This document shows, piece after piece, positions 27,612 through 64,000 of a stretch of DNA of 64,000 nucleotides. Origin of the DNA: Mesaphorura yosii (Eukaryota; Arthropoda; Collembola; Poduromorpha; Tullbergiidae); the NCBI GenBank assembly GCA_009869945.1, contig WIXG01000143.1, forward strand, positions 1-64,000. Direction: 5' to 3'. Under the pieces are notes generated by a model. That model saw only the letters and a program-made list of their open reading frames with translations, had not been told where the DNA came from and did not search any database. The position numbers and the translations under genes are program-made. Numbering within the stretch: the stretch's first letter is position 1; every line of letters starts with the position of its first letter.

Positions 27612-30600
27612 ATCCTTGTTTGTTATTCTACTACGCAGTGGTGATCTTTTACTAGCTGAAATTAGTAATTAAAGTAATGCCGCGCCGAGTGGCAAGTGCC
27701 ATTTTATGCTCTGCATCAAGTGTCATTCTGCATTCCGTCAATCGTACGATTTTAATATCAATGAGATGATATACCGCACCTTGTAGCACTTGTAAAAGTA
27801 GCAGTTCATCAAATAAAATGCGCTAATGAAGTATGTAAATGCTCGATACGTGTAGTCCTTTGTCAATAAGTGCAACAGCGACAGCGACAAGTCATGAAAT
27901 TCTGTGCTTCCCCAATGTATTTTACAGTCGGACACAGACACAGAACAACACTATAAATTGTTACAAGCATGTGAGATGAGATTTGAGGTGACTTGACTGC
28001 ATGCATACGTGTTAACGCTTAATGATAGTTAAAACTTTTCTTGAGTTAAGAATGCCTTTTTGAGATAATGCATCAAATCAACTGCTGGATGCATATTTGT
28101 CCAGTCCCCAGCTGTGAACAATGAGCACGTACGCATCAGGTGACAGAAATTCCAAACGTTTAAAACACTTTAGCACATTCGAACCATCTAATTACAGCCT
28201 CTCATTCGCTCCCTTAGGAACCTTTATGACTCATTCATGATCAGCAAATAATGCACCTGGCAATTTATTACGTGTATAACAGTACACGTAAGAAGCGTAC
28301 ACGTTTGTAAGGCACTACACGTTGAGCAGTCTTCTTCTGCGAACTATTGTGGTGGCGTGAAGACGTCTTGGTTTTGACTCTTGATGTCCACACGTCTACA
28401 TCACACCACGCTCCTTCTACTCCATGTCTACCTCTGCGTCTACGTCTCGCCCTTTGCCTTCATTGAGTCAAAGCAATGCCACAGGTGTGACACAGAGTCA
28501 TTTTTTGTATGACAAAACTAGCCGAACGTCCGATAATGGGCGCGTTCATGGATCTGATTGATCCAGATACGTTTAGGAACATCGAAAGCCTTTCCATTGA
28601 ATTGATTTGCGATTGCTGTTACAAAACAACTCACCTTTCTGCTGGAGCGTTTCCCTTTCGGACCCGTTTCAATTTCGCCAGGGACTCAGGCGCAGATGGG
28701 ACACCTTTGATGACGCCTGTCGTTCAGTGGCAAATCATGTACTAATGCATTCATGGCCAAGTTCAAGATTATAAAGTAAATGTCAATGTTTATTGATATG
28801 CTGTTGGGAAAATATGTAATCAGAAAATGCAATTTTTGAATTGAGAGTTGACCACAACCATTACCAATCGTACTTAAAAGGATTACGAGCGGTTTACAAT
28901 CATCGCTATGTGACGTTGTCACTTAATTAAAAAATTACAGCCCAGCACACTGCGCTGTAATTGCCCGCTCTTATCTTTTCAGTACGTCTGCAGAGTATTT
29001 GACAACTTTTATTGTTTTATGTCGCGTTACTGCGATGTACTCAAATTCTAAATTGCAGTATCGCAAATCTCTTCTCCGAAATGTAAGCTTCTCTCACCCA
29101 AATATCGCCCAGTCTGAAAGTAAGCCCACCAATTAGAAACCTGCCCTAGTAAACATGTTTAATACTTAATATCCAGTTTCGAGAGGTTCATAAATTGCGA
29201 ACTTACGAACTCGTCATCATGTGACGAAACGTCGCCTTCCGCCATTAAAAATTATCTTTTCCTCTGCTCCGCGGGTTTCACAGTAGAATAGTTGGCAATT
29301 TAATGAAGTACTTTGAGCCCAAGCCTCAACCCATTGCATTTGATGTGGGTTGCCTCCTGATTCTCGTCCAGCGTCCAATGTCTGGCAGGTCACTACAATC
29401 GACTAGCCAAAATAAAAAATGTGAATATTGCTTCATGTTTTTATCGCGTGTGGCTTGACTATTTCACAATTAGTGCTTGATTTCAACCGCTGGCTATCTA
29501 TTTGAACCCTAAAGACTTGTTTTATTAAGTCTGAAGCAGAATATCACGCGGCAAATGTCATAGCTGAAGTAAAAATATGAATGGCACGATGAAAGCAACC
29601 TGTTTAGCCGCATAAACGTTGCTGCTACCGAACCGAGGAAGATATCTGTATTCTGTACTTTCGTTCCTGTGGAATTCGTTTATTTTTTTATACATCAATT
29701 GACATCGAAGGCACGAAACCTACTACATCGTGGCTCCACCATTTCAGATTGATTAATCCTAGGCTTCTTGAAGAACTGGAAATCAGGAAGGATCTGTCCA
29801 AGTGTTAAAGTCTCAAAGCGAAGAAATTTCACTCCATTGCACCAGCAGTAGCAGTGTGGTGAAATGAATAGGATCTTACCAACTTTAAACCACAGGTGAT
29901 TTGAAAGCCTGAATATCAGAAGTCAGACTCGAGGGTTCAGTGATTTGCTTAGCGCGTGGTCGATAAATGTTCGCTGAACCTTAACTAGAGCTGAACGAAC
30001 AAAACCTGCTAAATGTAGCCTTGATCGAACTGCTCGTAGTTATACTTCAGCGTCTCTTCAAGTCCAGTCTTTGATTGTGGTCATCTGATTCTAAAGAAAT
30101 TTTGTGGAATTGGGTCTAACCTACACGTAGTATGAATTTCACTGGTCTATGCACGAGGCAGCTTCCTCCACTAACTAAAGAGATAACAATGTTGTATATT
30201 CAGCATTCAGCACGAATCCGTAATCTCTTTGCGAGACTTAATGCTATGCATACCATCATATCAGCACTGGTGCCTGCACCATTGAAATCTGAAACATATT
30301 CAGAATACTCATTTATTTACCAAAAACACTTGCTTTTTATTTGTTTTCGATGCACCTGTGCAAGTGTCCCATATCTCATATCTCAAGCTCACTTCGGCTA
30401 TGACGAACATGATCACGGGCCATATTCAGTTCTCTACTTGCTTGATACGCCTTCCTAACAGGCTGCTTCCGACGCTCCAGAACCCGTCTATGAAATTGTC
30501 AAGTTATAGGATTCATAAACGGCTCCAATCGTTGTAATCGGCATAATTACCTAAATTAGGTCATGGTGCTGCTCATCGTCTAGTTATACTTGCTTGTGTT

Positions 30601-32099
30601 AAAGTGTGCAAATTTTCTCACAGGATCATCATACTCAGACAGAAGATAAAAGCTTGTTGGAATGTAGTCACTTTTTAACGCACCGCGATTAATTGACGAT
30701 TAGACAAACGTCAGGCTTCATGTTGTGCCATACATACGGCTAATTCTCTTTCGTCAAAACGCGTCACATAATAATCTATCTCGTATCTGGTCTTTTTGTT
30801 GACATTGGGATTGGCACGCTTTCAGCTACGTTTCGTAAACTTCTAAATGGCGACTGGTTCATTGCTTCTTGTAATATAGCAGAGTTTAGGAAGGTGGAAG
30901 GAGTACAGCGTGGGAGACTTCGCGAAATGGCAAATGTGGCTGTGGAAGTTCCAATTGTTATTTTCAATGCAAATCGATCGCTGTGGTCATATGCGTCAAT
31001 GTATGGGAATTGGGAATGAGGAACTTCACTCTGGGAAAAAAATGGACAACGAAGCACCTGCAAGCATTCAACTAGAGAGATAATGTAGCTTTATTGACGG
31101 GACCGAATGACTATGCTCACCAGGGAGCCACGCGAACTGTTATTTTAGCAAATTTTCGCGAACAAAGTTTTTACACTCTTTCGGGTCAGTAAGGACTCGT
31201 GACTTACGGCAAACCCACCGGTTTTGCGATTTTGTTGCACAATGGAATTTTAAAGTTCGCATGGCTTGCAAGTTTCGAACGGGAATTTCCTTATATGAAT
31301 CTGCTTACTTTTGAACGAATCTAAAACATAATCCCCCTGCCACTTTCCCCCAAGGGGGATACGCAATGGGGTTGTGGTAGGCTAAAAAAAAGTTCGCGTG
31401 GCTCCCTGGTCAGATGACTTCTTATGAGTACTTGAAATTGCAGACAGCAAGAGTGTAATTCCCATGTCTAGACTAGAACAGGTTAAAGATCTTGCAATAT
31501 AGAACCAAGCGATGAAGCTGTAGCCAGCTGTGGTCAAGAAACTGAAGACCAATCACACATGCACGATAAATGTCCGTGGAAGACGGTGTATAGAAAGATC
31601 ATTCATGATTATGAAGGTTAGCTTAATTTAATCAATTAATTCTTGTGCGCAGAGTTCAAGATAAATCATTCCTTCATACAGACCAGAGGACGGATGACAA
31701 GAAAGACTCCCGCACAACGCAGTCCACCAGGCCATTTACATAGTTATAAAATGATGTTCGTGACCATTTAACATTAAGGGTATGCACAAACTATGAACTG
31801 CACCATTTATCATTGGCTCGTTCAGTTGTCTGGCGTGACGCGTGACTCACTTGTCGAGGTTTGCATGAAAGTGCTGACAGTAGCAACAAGTTATCTAAGC
31901 TTCCTCTAGTCCCAACTGCAGACATTGAGTAAAGTAATTTAAGATGTAACATTTTGACGATTTTTGGCCGGTAGCATTTGTTGCATGCTGTTTTCTCTGA
32001 ACTGAACAGTTCATGAAAGGTTACTTCACAAATTGGTCGGGCATTCGAAGGTAGCTTTGTTCTGTGATCAGTAATCCGGCTCAATAATCTCAACTCACT
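27612..32099. other. 4.5 kb without a recognised gene, containing one MITE-like element
   Basis: Apart from the inverted-repeat element at 31120-31409 and the CD36-gene promoter and 5' UTR at the right end, I find no supported gene. Between about 30732 and 31018 both strands are open for some 90 codons, but neither reading has family motifs or good splice sites. A small inverted repeat (ACGTGTA TAACAG TACACGT) lies near 28270-28290. Confidence 0.45.
31120..31409. mobile_element. 290-bp MITE-like element with terminal inverted repeats
   Basis: The ends are perfect inverted repeats of 19 bp (CCAGGGAGCCACGCGAACT at 31120-31138, its complement at 31391-31409). Similarity continues inward for about 10 more bases (a T-rich tract then AGC) with small differences. 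The element is flanked by a direct TCA on each side (31117-31119 and 31410-31412), which would fit a 3-bp target-site duplication. The inside has no open frame for a transposase, so it is non-autonomous. No second copy is in this window. The superfamily cannot be assigned from the ends alone. Confidence 0.75.
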
Positions 32100-34108
32100 A
32101 TGAACGTACAAAGGCTTCCAGTACTTCTAGTCTTACTTGGATTGGTACTTTTGATTGCAGCGGTCGTTGTCGGCTGGACCATCATTCCCAACAAGATTCA
32201 TCGACAAATCGTAGACGTAAGTTAAGGAGTTCTCCGTTTCCTCAAATGTGACTAATTTTCTAAAAGAACTTTTCGTACGTATAGGCCGTGCAACTCCACA
32301 ATGAATCTGGGACATGGGAGAAATGGGTGAACATCACAACTCCAATATTCATCAAGTTTTACATCTTCAATGTCACAAATCCGGACGAAATCAAGCGTGG
32401 GAAGATTCCGAAACTGCAGGAACTGGGGCCTTATGTTTATCAGTAAGTGAAACAATTCGTTCCGTCCTCACAGGCGAGTTCGCTTGTGTGCTGAGACACA
32501 GTTCTAATGATTTTGTCTTATGCCAAGGCAAAAACGTGACAAGTTTGACATCTCAATCAATGAGGCGAGGGACACCGTGAAATACAAGCAAAGAACGACG
32601 TACTTCTTCCGCCCAGAACTGTCTGGAGGCTCAGATCAGGATGTTATTCAAGCTATGAATATTCCGCTTGTGGTAGGCTGGCAATTAGCAAAGGGATTTA
32701 CATATTGCAAGTCTTCTTATGCAATTTGCCTTTTCTGACAACAGGGAATTGCCAAGAGACTGGCAAAGCTACCTTGGCCTACGTATTTGTTTGCAAACAT
32801 GTACCTGACAAGATTTGACCAGGAACTGTTCTTCCAAAACACGGTCGAAGAGTTTCTCTTCAAGGGGAAGTTCCATCCACTTGTCGATGTGCTACAAGAC
32901 ACATTTGGACTTAACATTTTGCCGAACAGCACCTTTGGCCTTTATTACGGTGTAAGCGCAGTATAGGCACTTCTAGATCCTCATACAACATGCTGCAAAT
33001 AATAATCAACGTTACATATTCTAGAAAAATGGGACTGAAGATGCCGAATATGAGATTAAAAGCGGGAGACAAAGTTCACAAGAGTTTGGAAGAATAGTGA
33101 AGTGGAATTCCCAGAGCAGTCTGGACTATTGGCCTGGAAAATACTGCAATATGATTAATGGCTCCGAGGGATCATTGTTTCCACCATTTGTTAAAAAGAA
33201 TAGGATTCTAGAAATTTTCACAGCGGACCTTTGCAGATCAATCTACCTGACCTTTGAGAAAGAGGTTAACTTTCATGGAATCCCAGCGTATAAATTTGCA
33301 ATTCCACAAAGAATGCTTGAGGATCCTCGCATTAACGGGGACAACAAATGTTTCTGTCCGAATCCGGGCCGAAACATGGAAGGATGTTTGCGAGCGGGTG
33401 CCTTACAGCTGTCATCTTGTCGGAACGGTACGACGAATGCGAATCTATGAGTCCGTCCCTCATAAATATAGATTTATAATTTTTCCGTAAAGGCGCTCCG
33501 ATTGTGGCCTCAACTCCACATTTTCTTGATGGGTACGAAGGCTACATTGAATCAGCGATCGGTTTACATCCTCGGAAATCAGCGCATGAGACTTTCATCA
33601 ACCTGGAACCGGTGCGTAGTAAATTAGATTTCATTAAGCAATTCATACTTCTCAAATGCAAGAACGAGACCCTCCTTACTTGCAGACAAGTGGTGCTGTG
33701 TTGCACGTCGACAAACGAATCCAAATCAACGTGCAGTTGGAACCAATCGAGACACTGGACGTGTTCAAGAACGTGCCCAACATGTTATTCCCAATACTTT
33801 GGATTAACGAGGTCAGTTTCGGTAACAAAAGTTTGACTGGGATTAAGTTGCCTATTGCATAGCGTTTGCTCTTACTTTATCAGGGTGCCACTATGCCTGA
33901 TGAAAGCATCGAGCTTCTGAAACAAAAATTGGTGACACCTGTCTATGTAGTCGGAATTGCAAGAATTGTGCTTGTCATTTTCAGCTTGGTCCTTCTCGTG
34001 GTTGGAATCATTTTATACATTGTTCGATGCCGACGCAGTAGACCACGTCACCTTCCCACTTCCATTCCGATTACCACATTTGCGGACAATTCAATCTCAA
34101 AGATGTAA
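32100..34108 (+). CDS. CD36 / scavenger receptor class B family protein
   Basis: Surface or lysosomal receptor of the CD36/SCARB/LIMP-2 family, which binds lipids, lipoproteins or microbial ligands; arthropods carry many paralogues. Eight exons: 32100-32216, 32285-32442, 32528-32672, 32745-32951, 33025-33427, 33493-33611, 33686-33811 and 33884-34108, GT-AG, giving 499 residues, typical of the family. An N-terminal transmembrane helix (about 8-30) and a C-terminal one (about 443-470) bracket a large ectodomain. Ectodomain landmarks are FYIFNVTNPDEI, KLQELGPYVYQQ, NGSEGSLFPPFV, the cysteine-rich CFCPNPGRNMEGC...SSC loop followed by GAPIVASTPHFL, several N-glycosylation sites and LFPILWINEGATMPD. 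The short cytosolic tail has no clear sorting motif. AATAAA lies 150 bp past the stop. The paralogue cannot be named from sequence alone. Confidence 0.95.
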
Positions 34109-34258
34109 TCTCCAGTCCACTCTAGTATTTTTTAATATTGTTATGTTTTGTTACGTATTTGGTATTTATGACATGCATCGACATTGCGTGATGCGTGAGT
34201 TGATTATGATTATTTTTACTGAAACAGGCAGACCGGCTGGAAGTAGCCGTTGATTTGA

Positions 34259-34264
34259 AATAAA
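34259..34264 (+). terminator. Probable polyadenylation signal of the CD36-family gene
   Basis: Canonical AATAAA 150 bp after the stop codon, in the gene's orientation. Position and sequence fit a poly(A) signal; the cleavage site cannot be seen. Confidence 0.55.
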
Positions 34265-34977
34265 GATTCATTCATTGAAGAGGTGCGCAGATAATTGCGT
34301 GTGGTTTTCGCGAGAGATCTGAGTCTGGAATCTGCAGCTAGACCAAGCCCATTTCCGCAATGCACTTCACTTGTTGTTTATCAACTGAATTAATACTGAA
34401 TCATTGATATTCGTGCACCATGCGCGCTAACGCTAACATGAATATGGACATCGGGAACGAGACAACAATCAATAACGTATAAACACATTATTATTAGAAG
34501 CTCTTACTCCCTCGCATTTCTCTTTTCCAGGCACTGCACTGAACGGATCAAACATCTGCTTCCGTGCTTCCTCTTGCGAGTAACGGACATCGGGCTTCCT
34601 CTTTCTTCCGCACACTATCGCACTGTTCCTGTTTGTACTAAAAGTTTAAAGCTCCGACCAACAATGCGTACGCCCGTACGCGTTCACTCGCATACTATGC
34701 TACGAATGCTACGAAGGGCTGAGCATTCATTCCCCGAATCGGAAAAGTTTCGATCCAGTTCATGCATGTGTTCGAGTATTCGAGTCTAGACTCGAAGTAC
34801 TGTCCAAACCCGCGACACAAATCGGCAGACTGGATAGCGAAAGCTTTTATTTTATTTCTAACACGCAGACCTAATTGATTAAAGTTTAAATCGCTGGTTT
34901 GACTGTGAGTTACCAGTGCTCTGAGTAATAATATTTAAATGTGCTAACAAGACCGTCACATCGCGAGCGCATCGGTG
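34265..34977. other. Non-coding stretch upstream of the mir-7-like hairpin
   Basis: About 0.7 kb with no supported protein gene. It contains a perfect 18-bp palindrome at 34779-34796. A promoter for a mir-7 primary transcript, if the microRNA has its own, would be expected here or further upstream. Confidence 0.4.
34779..34796. repeat. Perfect 18-bp palindrome
   Basis: TTCGAGTCTAGACTCGAA equals its own reverse complement. Four more base pairs (AGTA / TACT) can form outside it if one G is bulged. A partial copy of the half-site (TTCGAGTA) precedes it. It lies about 200 bp before the mir-7-like hairpin. It could be a dimeric protein-binding site; function is unknown. Confidence 0.8.
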
Positions 34978-35061
34978 GAGGAATACCTGATTGGAAGACT
35001 ATTGATTTTGTTGTATAACTTAAGGAACAGCATGTCAAAAGTCTTCCTGCAGTGGTTCCTC
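34978..35061 (+). ncRNA. mir-7: mir-7-like microRNA precursor hairpin
   Basis: The 23 nt at 34992-35014 match mature animal miR-7 at every position except number 11 (T here, G in the canonical form), including the whole seed GGAAGAC. The flanks fold into an 84-nt hairpin of precursor size. The mature 5' end GGAAGACT pairs perfectly with AGTCTTCC at 35039-35046, and the stem continues with mismatches towards the loop (about 35015-35028). A lower stem GAGGAA/TTCCTC (34978-34983 with 35056-35061) closes the base. The mature strand on the 5' arm is as in known miR-7. miR-7 is conserved across bilaterians and acts in photoreceptor and sensory-organ differentiation in flies. In flies and vertebrates it lies in an hnRNP K gene intron; here no host gene is recognisable. 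The match rests on my memory of the mature sequence. Confidence 0.85.
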
Positions 35062-37584
35062 AAAATTCACCATTTAACAGAGGTCAAGACGGCTTTGCCA
35101 TTCACACCAGGCAGCCGTCAACCTATACAATCCATCGGTACATCCGGTGATACAGATTCAGGTTAGGCCTGTTGATTAGCTTAGCATAGTCGCAATGTGC
35201 GTCTTCAGCAGCGAAAAGTAGTCCGAAATAATTCATTTCCGTGAAAATATGATTGCAATTAAATCCATGTATATTTGCTTGAACAGATTAAATGTACAAA
35301 GATCTCTGACCACAAGCGTCACTGGGATAATATATGTGGGTGAAATCGGAAGATCAGGAAACACTGCATGCACAGCACTTCCGCCGCTCCAACCAAGAAA
35401 AACAAATCTAATCCCAGTTTTATCCGGTTGATAATATGAGTATTGCGTATTGTCGGTGAGTATAAAGGATTCAACGTGCAGAATTCACTGTGCCTTCTGT
35501 TGAGCCAATTTGATGGAGATTTATCGCCTCGTAAAAGAGGCTGTCGTCACATCGGATCAGAGTCATGACGCCAAGCTGACTGAGCCCACATAATCGTGTG
35601 AGCTGGCCGTCTGCGATTCTTTCAGGTTGTATTGAGCATTTACTTTTGCCTTTGCCATTTATTCTTAATTGTGCAGCTTTAACTGCAATTAAGTGAAGCA
35701 ATTCAAGTCAATGGTCAATGCTTTTTTGTGTATCGATCTATTGATTTTTCTTTTGCATGCAATGTTGGTTTTGGCTTCTTGATTAATAATTCAACACCGC
35801 AAAACATTACAACTTTGGCATGGGTATCCAGCTCCAGTCGATTGGTTTTCATTATGCTTCACACGCATAAAATATGCATACTGAAGACCTTCTTGTAAGG
35901 AATGTAACTATCTATGTATGTAACATTGGCCAGTGCCAATGACTCATTCTCGAGTTTTGCTAGATGCTAAATATGAGACCATCTTTTAATATTCATGTGA
36001 AATTATAAACAAAGGCTCTTCACACTTATGTCATTAGTATTCTTATTCTCGTACCGTTTAAGTAGCAGTGGCAAAACTTTCGCGTACGTGAGCTCAATTG
36101 CGGTGTTTTGAGCTTGTGTCTTATGTGTAAATGTGCATGACGCTATCGTGCATAACTAAAATGATCTTTGATCTTCTGGAGAGCAATAAAATTTGGTGAC
36201 GCATACGCTAACACCTTTATTATGGAGATTGTGGACCAACGATCATGAACTTGAGAATTGAGTGGTGAATGCCATTACATCGCTAATCGGTTCGATATTC
36301 AGCATTCCTCAAGCTGAAGTTATTTTCTAATCGTGTCCCTACATGTCATAGGTGGACTCTCGTCAAGAGTCAGCCTCGTGCTCGATCATTGGCATTTAAT
36401 TACTTACAAATTTTAATTTTATACGTGCAAACTACTCATGTACAAATACGTGCGTGCGATTAGTCGTACAGTCATTTTGGCGACAGACTACAACGATCCA
36501 CTTTACAGTTTCGCCATCGACATCCGCAAAAGAAGTGGAGTCTGAGCAAACATTTAAAAAATGAATGAAGCACATGGAATGCGGATGGTTATGACTTGAG
36601 TCTCAGTCCTCCACATACGCAAACTCAAAGCCTTCCACATAAGGTTAAATCATTTGAGGACGAGGGATTAGCCGATTAGCTAATCATGCTGATCATGTTG
36701 CTTTTGAGCCCACAGGTGCGAGAATATTGCGTAATAATTAGCATTCATACGTTTATTTGACGACAGTGAACTCCGCCGCTGCGCTGCAGCCGCTTACCAA
36801 ATAAAGTCAAGAAACTGCTGCGAAACTGTGAATCCGTAAATAGATGATCGTAAGTGTTAACTGCGTACTGGCAGCCTGTCGTGATGACTGGATTTATGAA
36901 TATGACATATCAACAGTACACGGATTTAGCGTGGGGTTTTCCAACTGTCGATCCCAAGTGCGTGAGCCGCGTCGGTGAGGAAGCACGTGAGTAACACTTC
37001 TCGAGGAAAGGTGGGCTGCTTGCTCCACTACGCTTGTGGCTGGATGCTGATGCTAGATGGTTGGGGATTTCAATTAAATATTTACACCAAATCTGTCTGT
37101 ATTCTTAACCCACAGTTTCCATTTCATGGAACACTTCGCACGTACTTCGTGCCGTACCGGCGTATGTGGAACATAAACATTCTTCAGTGAGGTAATCGGC
37201 GCGGCTCGTGATGGGATGAGCACAGAGTAGCAGTCATCACGATTTGGGGATGCCTGCTTCAACTTCGCTTCACTGTTTGCTGACTTAACTTGAGCCGAGG
37301 CTTGAATCAGCATCAGCACATTAGCAACAGCAGCACCCCCGTCACAGTCGTGCCTCATGAAGTTACGTACTTGCGAGATGCGGTCGGCTACTATAAATAT
37401 ACCGGTCAGGCATGTCTATGATAATGTCAAACGTGATTGAGCATAAAGATCGACACAACCTCATTTTCCGGCTCAGTTGTCAATTTTTGACGAACCGTAC
37501 AGCGTTAATCACTTAGCCTCCACTTCACTGCAATTACACTGCCAGAACTTTCTATCACGAAGTGTATCGGTACAAAATCTCAAA
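35062..37584. other. 2.5 kb without a recognised gene
   Basis: I see no supported gene, RNA or repeat. The stretch is AT-rich with scattered short open frames in all frames. The right end should hold the promoter and 5' UTR of the Spätzle-like gene. Confidence 0.45.
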
Positions 37585-38457
37585 ATGAGAAACGGTATCG
37601 AGGGAATTCTGTTGGTACAATTTGTAAGTTCCTTGAGCGTTGAGAAGTCAGTCAATTCCTCAAGTCCCATTCAATTTTGCTTCGTCAATGGAGAATTCCA
37701 ATTCTAGTCCCAGCTCCTACTTGTTCCTGTTCCGATTGCAGAATACTGTGGTTGACCCCTTATCTTCTTGTTTAGGTGCTGATACTATTGCTCGGCGCGT
37801 GTCAGAGCTCTCCCATGTACAACGTCTACAATGACGACAACGAACCGCCAGCTATTCCGATGCACTACTTAAAGTAAGTTCCGAAGGTTTCCATGTTTCT
37901 GTAAGATGGCCAATAGACCAAGAGGCAGAAAGTCATTTCCGCTTTGTTTCATGTAGAATTCCAATGCATCACATTGACACGTCCAGTGACAGCAACGAAA
38001 TTGGCATGTATGAGAACGAGATTTACGGGAGAATCTTCAAACGCACGCGTACTTCAACCTCTTCTGTCTCCGACACCTGCTGTCCGACCACGATAGACAT
38101 CATTGAGCCGTCGCACGGGAAGAACCGAGCAGGTTCGTCAATTAAACGCATTACGCCAAAGAGGCATAAATGTGAGAGTGATTGTTAAATTGTGATTTTC
38201 GCGTTCCAGGAGATTTAGTCGAACTCTATCAGTCGGAGAATGTGCGTCAACGATTCTACGAGAACTCTTGCACGGCAGCGGTAGCTGATCTGCCCTGTCG
38301 ATTTCTGGACCGAAAACATTCTTCACACTCGCGATGCGTGCAGCAGTACTCGTACACATACGCCATGGTGAGAGATACAACGAACCCTGACGCAGAATGG
38401 AAACTGGACTACATCCAGATCAGAAGCGGGTGTTCGTGTCATATATCCAAGACGTAA
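37585..38457 (+). CDS. Spätzle-like secreted cystine-knot cytokine
   Basis: Predicted secreted ligand of the Spätzle/neurotrophin-like family, whose members activate Toll-type receptors after cleavage of a pro-domain. Four exons: 37585-37623, 37776-37873, 37957-38132 and 38210-38457, GT-AG, giving 186 residues. A signal peptide (hydrophobic VLILLLGAC core) is split between exons 1 and 2. A short pro-region ends near a dibasic KR at 74-75, which would release a C-terminal piece of 111 residues, close to the size of active Spätzle. That piece has seven cysteines (87, 88, 125, 134, 147, 179, 181), enough for three knot bonds plus one intersubunit bond, and the motifs CCPTTIDIIEP, CRFLDRKH, RCVQQYSYTYAMVRD and WKLDYIQIRSGCSC. 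The paired CC at the start and the RSGCSC end resemble the spz3/spz4-type branch more than spz itself; this placement is inference. The pro-domain is much shorter than in most Spätzle proteins. Confidence 0.88.
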
Positions 38458-40463: not shown

Positions 40464-41642
40464 TCAGTTCGGGCCAGCAGCAGCAGAAGCGGTCTGAGAC
40501 GACGAATGTGAGTGTGGATGCGAATGTAGAAAATTTGCTGCACTGTTACCATTTCCATTACTACTGCGAACCGTGTTCGGTGAACCAGCAGAATGGATAG
40601 AAGATGAAGCTGGCGACGGAGAGAAAAACGGAGACGGTGACGGAACAAATGGCGTGTTTGGGAATAGCCAGAGCCTGTCTCCGAGAACCATTGGCCGCGG
40701 ACTGACGAGGCCCATCGCCGAGTAGTATTGTTGAGCAGCAACTTCCAACTCACTCGTGTACTTGCGCTTCCACTTGGTTCTTCGATTTTGGAACCAGATT
40801 TTAATCTGTACAAAAGTTATGTTATATTTTTCTCTTTTTGCCTGTCGCATCTAATTTCCTAATTTACACGTTCCGAGTCCAGCGCAGACCACAGATCCCA
40901 GGAGACAATATACGCAATACGACGCAATACGCAATAGGCAACTTACTTGAGTTTCTGACAACTTGAGATTCTTAGCAAGCTGGGCTCGCTTGGCCACGGA
41001 TAAGTACTTGTTTCTTTCAAACTCTGCTTCCAGGGCCTTGACTTGTGAAGATGTGAATGCAGTCCGGGGTCTCTTCTTTCTCTCATCCTTACTTTCGTCT
41101 GAAATCAATTAATGTGAGAGAGAATCAGCATCGCCACGTTGCTTCAACGCCTATCAGTAAGGAAGAGGTGCAGCAAATCTGGATAACCCACGTCCGGTAT
41201 AATTTCCGAAAAAATGCTGTACTACCACGGGGAAAACTCCAACTTTGTATTAAAACGTACGATTTCAAACAAGCCAAATATGAATCGACATTGTAAAACA
41301 TGCACACAATAAATCCATGCAAATAACATCGCATTCAAGTAAGTCTGATAAGAAAATTAAAATCCTATCAAGTAGGTTTGATCTAATTTTTTCAGACCGT
41401 GCAAATGGAATGGATGCAAATGGTCCAAGTGAAGGAATTGCAATCTCCAGACAGGTCATCGACACAGCAGTGGATTCATGCAGTCACACAAACGAAACTG
41501 AAATACCGTATTGCAGTTCCTCGTCGTTGATGAATGGCTGGTCCACCATGGTTGAATCCGCATCGTCCGGTCGCACAGCCTCTATTCGACTCCGCAAAAG
41601 ATTGTCGATCGTAAAATCACAAGGCTTTCGATCTCGATCCAT
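40464..41642 (-). CDS. NKL-type homeobox transcription factor with EH1 motif (Nedx/lms-like?)
   Basis: Compact DNA-binding transcription factor. Three exons on the minus strand: 41642-41507, 41098-40947 and 40805-40464, GT-AG, giving 209 residues. Exon 1 encodes an engrailed-homology-1 (Groucho-binding) motif, DFTIDNLLR, at residues 9-17. The homeodomain covers about 53-112: [20 protein letters not shown], then [21 protein letters not shown], then [15 protein letters not shown], with Gln at position 50. The intron splits it between positions 44 and 45. After it come [16 protein letters not shown] and [14 protein letters not shown], then a Ser/Pro/His-rich tail. EH1 plus this homeodomain indicates the NK-like group of the ANTP class. 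Linkage to Distal-less points to Nedx (Next-to-Distalless; lms in flies), but I cannot confirm that from memory of the protein; other NKL families remain possible. Confidence 0.85.
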
Positions 41643-61858: not shown

Positions 61859-62704
61859 CTATGTGAGAAGCCCCGAGTGGTCCTGATGGTACCAGTGGTA
61901 CTGGTACGGGGCTTGATGACCTACGTGTTGAAGGCTGGGGTGCGGCGGCGGGTGATGAGGGTGGTTGCCGCCAGGGATTCCCATTCCAGCAGCTGCGTGA
62001 GGAGGTACTTTCATATCCCAAGGAGACACTGGAGATGAGCAACTGGCCTGCAAATGAAATAATCATACGTCAGTTTGGTGCTTGCTTGGTTCTCGGCCTC
62101 TGTTTGTTTGTATTGGCTAAAAAGCTACGGGTTTTGATGATTGGACAGCAAATAACTTGATTGAATAAAGAATTTATGTTTCGTAATAGTTTTTTGTGGT
62201 CTCGCCATTCAGCTCGCCACAAAAAGAAGGATTTGTATTGTCACAACTAAGCACTATCTACGCTGAAGTCAAAGCCGACGGGAGCATGCAAGTGTGTCCA
62301 CACGCAAGCCCGAACGAAACAAAAGAAGGACCTTGGGCCGATTTGGGCCACTTTATTGTTGTGACATGAGATCAAATCAAAACTCGCCACACCACATGCA
62401 ACGTCGGCATCGGCAATGGACAAACAACAAGCTGATCTCGTGAGATGCGGGCTCGAAAGTGCATGACGTGAAATATGAGGATAAAATTGCAATTTACCTG
62501 CGACTGGTTGCTAGGATTATTATTCGGTGGCGGAGGACTCATATCACCAGGCTGAGACGGGAACGAGTCCGGTGCTTGTGGGCTCATCGTCTCGTTTGAG
62601 TTCTCTTGCTGAAGCGACGGCTGATTAGGTCCTCCTGATTGTGCTTGGGCAGCTTTCATCAACTTTTTGTACTTACTCCGGCGATTTTGAAACCATATCT
62701 TTAC
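61859..62704 (-). CDS. Dll: Distal-less homeobox protein, C-terminal part (5' exons outside the window)
   Basis: Homeodomain transcription factor that specifies distal limb and appendage identity in arthropods. Two 3' exons are present: 62704-62498 and 62047-61859, in phase 0, encoding the last 131 residues. The first begins in homeodomain helix 3 with [20 protein letters not shown], the diagnostic Dll sequence. A Gln/Asn/Pro/Ser-rich region follows, ending MSPPPPNNNPSNQSQ. The last exon has the conserved SSPVSPWDM and ends in YQYHWYHQDHSGLLT, matching the Dll C-terminus. The acceptor TTCTTGCAG before VKIW lies at homeodomain position 44/45. No exon with helices 1-2 is found on the minus strand up to 64000, so the gene continues to the right and is truncated by the window edge. 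Confidence 0.95.
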
Positions 62705-64000
62705 CTGCAAGAAATAAATCAAGTGCTTGATTATTTGTTTGTGTTGCGGTTGGTTTGTCATTTCAAACTGGTTCATGTGCAGAGACTGGAAAATCTACCA
62801 CACATAATTACGGCATGATCACAAGTTGAATTGCCATTGCGTGTGACCTTCGTCTAAATACTCACCGCATGTCAGACTGTCGAATCTCGTAAAAATTTGA
62901 TGTCAAATGAAGATCACATGCGCAAATCAGAGGAAGCCGACAGAAATGCGAACTTAGAGTGCTCGTAGTAACAAAAATCTGAGTCGCTGGCACACTCATA
63001 CAATCGCCAATCGCAATGCATGGCGCATGAATCTGGGATTCTGTGGTCACAAAACGCTGTAGTCATTTAAATCGAGTTTGTAACTGCAATCATTTTCCTG
63101 TGTAAAGTGCAATTAGCACCACGCTCATTTCCTATTCCTCTTGTTTACTCCTACACTTGAACTCAGGTATCAAGCAGAAGCTGTCAAGAGCGAAGCGTTG
63201 ATGTGAACAAATAATGAATGAGGTGAGATTACAAAATGATCATTTTTACGTGAGTAACTCGTAACTCGTAACGTAACGTAACGTAACGCGCACACGGGAA
63301 AGTCCTCACTTTACTTTATGAACTCTTAATTAAGGCGGCTATTAAATGCAGCTCGCTCAGCTCTGACTCGAGATTATGGTGCAGGTAGGTTTACATGGTT
63401 TAATGGGTATTATTACCACTACTATAATTCTATCCCCATCACCATGCATGCCCTGCATTGCATTGCATTGCTGCATGGTATCATTTGCTAATTTGATGCT
63501 TATCAAAACTCGTTTCCCTGTACACTTGCACTGGCATTAAAGTAAGCGCATTAAAATCATCTGAAAACGTGATCGTAGAGACGTGAGTGTGAACTGTGAA
63601 TTCAAATTGCAAAATATTCTCGCGCCGCACCGTTCTGTCCGTCATTCTGACTCTGACCTTTACCTTTGCGAAAAAAAAAATTACAAAATTCAAGAGAAAA
63701 GGAAACGCTCGGCTGGCAATGCGAAGCATATTTGGCCAAAATTATAGTCTTTTGAGCAGTGAGCATTGCACGCATTGCAGTGGATCTTCGTTGCGCGGGC
63801 GTGTACGCGCCCGTGCACTCATTCAGACAACGCAGAGACGCGTCTTCGTCTTCTGCGTTTTCACACAAGACAAATTTCCTGCGCCGTTCTTCTCCACTCT
63901 GAAGCCCGGCTTATCAGCTGTTCATCTCTCGAAGGCAATCAGTCAAGTTCAGGCATATGCGAGTAACTCTCAAGCGTACTTTTCAATCATGAAGTGGAGA
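62705..64000 (-). other. Distal-less intron (part)
   Basis: This 1.3 kb should be intron between the helix-3 exon and the upstream homeodomain exon, because no exon encoding the rest of the homeodomain is visible. At least 1.3 kb long, it is far larger than the introns of the housekeeping genes. It contains a GTAAC repeat (63254-63288) but no gene. Confidence 0.6.
63254..63288. repeat. Short tandem repeat of GTAAC units
   Basis: Six GTAAC units occur in a row: two spaced as GTAACTC, then four directly joined, ending GTAACGC. It lies in the presumed Distal-less intron. An array of identical 5-bp words could be replication slippage or a clustered binding site. Confidence 0.75.

Follow-up and report, generated by a model that had tools for sequence, protein, structure and literature searches.

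A probable mir-7 gene at an unusual address in the collembolan Mesaphorura yosii, with a paralogue upstream of GW182

The 64,000 nucleotides analysed here (positions 1 to 64,000 of contig WIXG01000143.1, assembly GCA_009869945.1; hereafter the window, on contig C143) contain a locus that is probably a working mir-7 gene, and two such genes were found in Mesaphorura yosii; judged from sequence, we put the probability of this reading at about 0.87. It appears to be a real, slightly diverged family member with an unusual address and with a paralogue upstream of GW182. Few microRNAs of animals are as conserved as miR-7. Beyond its address and a U at position 11 of the mature strand, the window copy is an ordinary member of the mir-7 family.

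The mir-7 hairpin and the change at position 11

The features of the window copy are as follows.

34978..35061, plus strand: mir-7 precursor hairpin (Rfam RF00053, model positions 1-91, and RNA fold)
34992..35014, plus strand: predicted mature miR-7-5p, ends placed by homology
35002, plus strand: position 11 of the mature strand, a U whose partner is A at 35038 (G:C in the Rfam consensus)
35027..35050, plus strand: 3' arm (star strand region), paired in the fold, its 3' end predicted from a 2-nt overhang
35068..35071, plus strand: candidate processing motif CNNC, its first C 18 nt beyond the predicted 3' cut

A mir-7-like hairpin with a perfect seed and a 22/23 mature match had been noted here in a preliminary description of the DNA, and this is confirmed by sequence, fold and the Rfam model. 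Relative to miR-7, 22 of the 23 bases at 34992-35014 are equal (22/24 with base 24 counted), the sole internal difference being T for G at position 11; the canonical sequence used agrees with the Rfam mir-7 consensus and with the Ciona probe sequence in the available part of PMC6829576. Positions 2-8 read GGAAGAC, so that the mir-7 seed is intact, and the mature strand occupies the 5' arm of a single fold-back hairpin whose 3' arm is paired. Folding of 34970-35070, the check that the preliminary description had proposed, gave a stable hairpin (-33.6 kcal/mol, z = -4.64) that was equalled in stability by none of 200 shuffles. The RF00053 model, run with cmscan, matched exactly 34978-35061 with all 91 model positions at 43.2 bits (E = 7.7e-8 in 501 bases and 9.8e-6 over the 64-kb window), as expected of homology along the whole precursor. 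This score lies under the Rfam gathering score of 51.8 bits, an annotation cut-off and no biological definition, and the hairpin is accordingly absent from a default cmscan at that cut-off. The candidate CNNC motif, whose distance is plausible under the rule for CNNC in microRNA processing and favors a functional gene, is one of six CNNC matches in 35036-35110. A minus-strand mir-7 match on the hairpin (18.5 bits) and three further weak Rfam matches near it (snR76, mir-980 and MIR856) were set aside as evidence.

The pairing of U11 with A was recovered both by the Rfam alignment and by the independent fold, and the position-11 substitution is thus compensated on the other side of the stem. This makes a sequencing error less likely and argues that the stem is maintained. 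When variants were folded against the U:A pair, G11/A was 1.2 and U11/C 1.6 kcal/mol worse, while G:C was 2.0 kcal/mol better. The lower stability of U:A relative to G:C counts against a functional reading, as does the Rfam score below the curated cut-off; the compensated pair is, moreover, a single event that could be due to chance. The preliminary description had pointed out that the change lies beside the Argonaute slicing site. That this place makes it meaningful finds no support, the compensated pair pointing to maintenance of the hairpin, and an effect on slicing is speculation. miR-7 acts chiefly through its seed, and as the seed is unchanged in the U11 variant, seed-based target choice should stay as before.

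A second mir-7 copy upstream of GW182

Across the assembly (93.0 Mb, 1127 contigs), a 24-base mir-7 pattern allowing up to three mismatches was found in two places, the window and C795:15476-15499 (plus strand), and the reversed-pattern control gave no match. A degenerate core pattern at zero mismatches returned the identical two places; at up to two mismatches it returned 101 (three with one mismatch) versus 55 in the reversed control, and the places beyond the first two look like background. Among the best 54 of 11753 candidates scored in a genome scan with the Rfam mir-7 model, the window copy alone reached E <= 0.001.

The C795 copy shares mature bases 1-10, 12-17 and 19-22 and a mir-7-type hairpin with the window copy, from which it differs in its G11:C pair, in A18 and C23, and in a weaker Rfam match. 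Its mature sequence is canonical through bases 1-17, including G11, and matches at 21/23 overall. The folding energy of its precursor is -38.5 kcal/mol (z = -2.40), a value reached by 4 of 200 shuffles, and G11 is paired to C. The match to the Rfam model is weak (21.6 bits; E = 0.38 over 3 kb), and a joint scan of 39 kb did not report the copy at E <= 0.5; what speaks for it is the mature match together with the fold. The nearest CNNC lies 20 bases beyond the predicted cut, not 18, and a TATAAATA box starts 112 bases ahead of the mature sequence.

Approximately 2.6 kb downstream of this second copy, and in the same orientation, begins the one GW182/gawky gene that was found, its likely start codon being placed by eye at C795:18063. 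The gene was identified by Pfam matches to the M domain (67.7 bits) and the TNRC6-PABC domain (26.4 bits, cut-off 25); two N-terminal stretches, in which Pfam recognized nothing, were assigned by eye. The earlier suggestion of a second or relocated mir-7 locus is thus borne out in that the assembly holds a second mir-7, which was found upstream of GW182 and not in hnRNP K. A blastn comparison of window positions 33901-37000 with the 3-kb C795 locus found only the 22-nt mature stretch alike, the 11 other matches having E >= 1.2. Given this lack of flanking similarity, the two loci are not a recent copy or an assembly duplicate; shared sequence limited to 22 mature bases points either to an old duplication or to replacement of the flanks.

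The count of two would fall to one if C795 came from another animal in the sample, leaving the genome with a single mir-7, the relocated U11 copy. We consider this unlikely. It is favored by base composition, the GC content of C795 being 50.5% as compared to 43.0%, and by the trinucleotide profile, in which only C120 among 24 other contigs (one 3-kb piece each) was nearer to C795 than to the window, as was C613, a contig carrying a C795 repeat. This repeat, which lies a little over 1 kb past the C795 mir-7, is also present on at least 13 other contigs (C613, C638, C355, C554, C379, C327, C391, C463, C745, C85, C951, C823 and C522), 12 of these 13 being numbered C327 or higher and hence probably shorter than about 100 kb, and another repeat of C795 was seen on no other contig. 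However, the only GW182 gene found is on C795, and the G-alpha-like exon of C613 has no close match elsewhere (the next is 47% identical); in the two genes tested, GW182 and the G-alpha-like gene, C795 and C613 therefore complement the remaining contigs and do not duplicate them. Third-position GC also overlaps, with 0.36-0.58 for open reading frames of C795 and 0.42-0.51 for those of the window. We take C795 and the contigs sharing its repeat as most likely part of one genome, possibly a GC-rich compartment of it, for which such complementing is expected.

Alternatively, the work could be done by the C795 copy, with its canonical G11 and its place beside GW182, and the window copy could be a relic hairpin without expression. 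The altered position 11 and the lack of a visible host gene would suit such a relic, as would the retention of canonical bases 1-17 on C795. Yet it is the window copy that fits the mir-7 model better (43.2 vs 21.6 bits) and has the stronger fold z-score (-4.64 vs -2.40), its sole internal mature change is compensated, and a relic should have lost both pairing and seed in the time that wiped out the flanking similarity; we therefore rate this explanation as less probable still. That the window hairpin is a chance look-alike, for which one could cite the Rfam score under the cut-off, is extremely improbable, since only about 0.002 24-mers with up to two mismatches are expected (93 Mb, both strands, uniform bases) and both arms and the right fold are present.

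No mir-7 found in the usual host gene

In Ciona, mir-7 resides in the last intron of hnRNP K; the available part of that report places it there in human and fly as well and describes the placement as seeming “extremely conserved” (PMC6829576). A schistosome hnRNP K intron, according to the portion available of PMC2785426, holds miR-3148; mir-7 does not appear in that portion, nor in the available part of PMC4987109, which concerns mir-71. An hnRNP K gene of M. yosii was located on C265, where the KH3 exon scores 69 bits against solved hnRNP K and at most 54 bits against other proteins. The first part of this contig (C265:1-9999 of 112,190 bases) gave no Rfam match at E <= 1, and the single seed 7-mer in it is not followed by a mir-7; in the rest of C265, the pattern search and the Rfam scan of the genome yielded no mir-7. 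The idea of an hnRNP K exon with a KH domain close to one of the copies was rejected, all 44 KH matches of the assembly falling on contigs other than C143 and C795. The preliminary description had pointed to hnRNP K (bancal) as the place to look for a second mir-7: a second copy does exist, and none was found in hnRNP K, the window copy likewise not being in an hnRNP K intron.

A 365-codon open frame at C68:171981-172931 contains three KH matches, one of which resembles the C265 hnRNP K exons by eye; from its sequence, it is perhaps an intronless hnRNP K retrocopy.

The M. yosii genes share seed, mature 5p arm and hairpin layout with the mir-7 genes in hnRNP K introns (Ciona, human mir-7-1, Drosophila) and differ from them in location and, for the window copy, in U11. 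Extra copies outside hnRNP K are also present in vertebrates as mir-7-2 and mir-7-3; these keep the canonical mature sequence, in contrast to the U11 of the window copy. Among arthropods, an expressed mir-7 is described for Daphnia magna, with one entry in the available part of the table (PMC6828783) as opposed to the two copies in this assembly. With two mir-7 genes outside hnRNP K, the contribution of that host could be studied, and with a compensated mature change in one of them, so could the freedom of the middle of miR-7 to vary.

Genomic neighborhood of the window copy

The hairpin lies between two protein-coding genes on its own strand, with a further microRNA on the opposite strand.

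29979..30044, minus strand: mir-375 hairpin (Rfam RF00700, 37.6 bits, gathering score 46.7, E = 3.6e-5 over the window)
32088..34108, plus strand: CD36-family gene, upstream of the hairpin (Pfam on the middle pieces; first and last exons by eye)
38182..38457, plus strand: Spaetzle/NGF-domain exon of the downstream gene (Pfam)

Two of the three pieces tested of the upstream gene match Pfam CD36 (33025-33450 and 33638-33862), the N-terminal piece at 32088-32227 giving no Pfam match. Its last exon ends, by eye, in a stop codon at 34106-34108, 0.87 kb upstream of the hairpin, and an AATAAA at 34259 suggests that the gene ends ahead of the hairpin. Inclusion of the hairpin in the CD36 3' UTR was considered and is unlikely because this AATAAA is only about 150 bases past the stop. 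Downstream, the Spaetzle domain exon starts 3.1 kb from the hairpin and a likely upstream exon of the same gene, read by eye at 37835-38188 and unmatched in Pfam, 2.8 kb from it. The distances given previously, approximately 0.9 kb after the CD36-family gene and 2.5 kb before the Spaetzle-like gene, were therefore roughly right, and the view that no recognizable host gene surrounds the hairpin is supported. A candidate splice acceptor at about 34530 and a donor at 34905, both seen by eye, could place the hairpin in an intron of a non-coding transcript.

On the reading of the window locus as a functional gene, mir-7 would be transcribed between the CD36-family and Spaetzle-like genes, either as a unit of its own or within a non-coding primary transcript, and would be processed by Drosha and Dicer. 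The 5' arm would be loaded into Argonaute and would repress messages matching the unchanged seed, the predicted targets, while the U11 variant together with the opposite-arm change would keep the stem paired.

The mir-375 hairpin folds at -33.5 kcal/mol (z = -5.41) and, among the best 62 of 18106 candidates scored in the genome, no other reached E <= 0.001; its 66-nt Rfam match compares with a pre-mir-375 of 241 nt in Daphnia magna, as given in the available part of PMC6828783, and on this point the DNA is unlike Daphnia. It lies 5 kb from the window mir-7 on the opposite strand, so that the two are not one transcript. mir-375 is associated with secretory cells, and mir-7 and mir-375 both have links to cells of neurosecretory or endocrine type. 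The text of the section on microRNA clusters in the Daphnia magna report names no mir-7/mir-375 cluster (PMC6828783), and a mir-7 beside mir-375 or GW182/gawky was not described among the literature matches listed, in their titles and the starts of their abstracts.

It is conceivable, if improbable, that in this lineage mir-7 left hnRNP K and became two genes, one copy wired to GW182 and a U11 copy beside mir-375. Were this the case, GW182, the effector of microRNA silencing, and a mir-7 that depends on GW182 could share regulation, and the U11 mir-7 and the sole mir-375 detected may share cell-type control.

The gene content suggests an arthropod, and a search for COX1 gave no match. Several other features were observed on this contig. 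Homeodomain exons are present in the window at 40464-40850 and 62372-62794 (both minus strand, Pfam), the latter scoring 22.3, just below the cut-off of 22.9, and resembling Distal-less. Like the GW182 and G-alpha-like genes, the SMC-family open reading frame of the window has one full match in the genome; C325 adds a partial match of 53 residues (45%). Outside the window, at C143:73415-73552 (plus strand), lies a candidate box H/ACA snoRNA, snoR639/H1, with 38.8 bits at a cut-off of 42.
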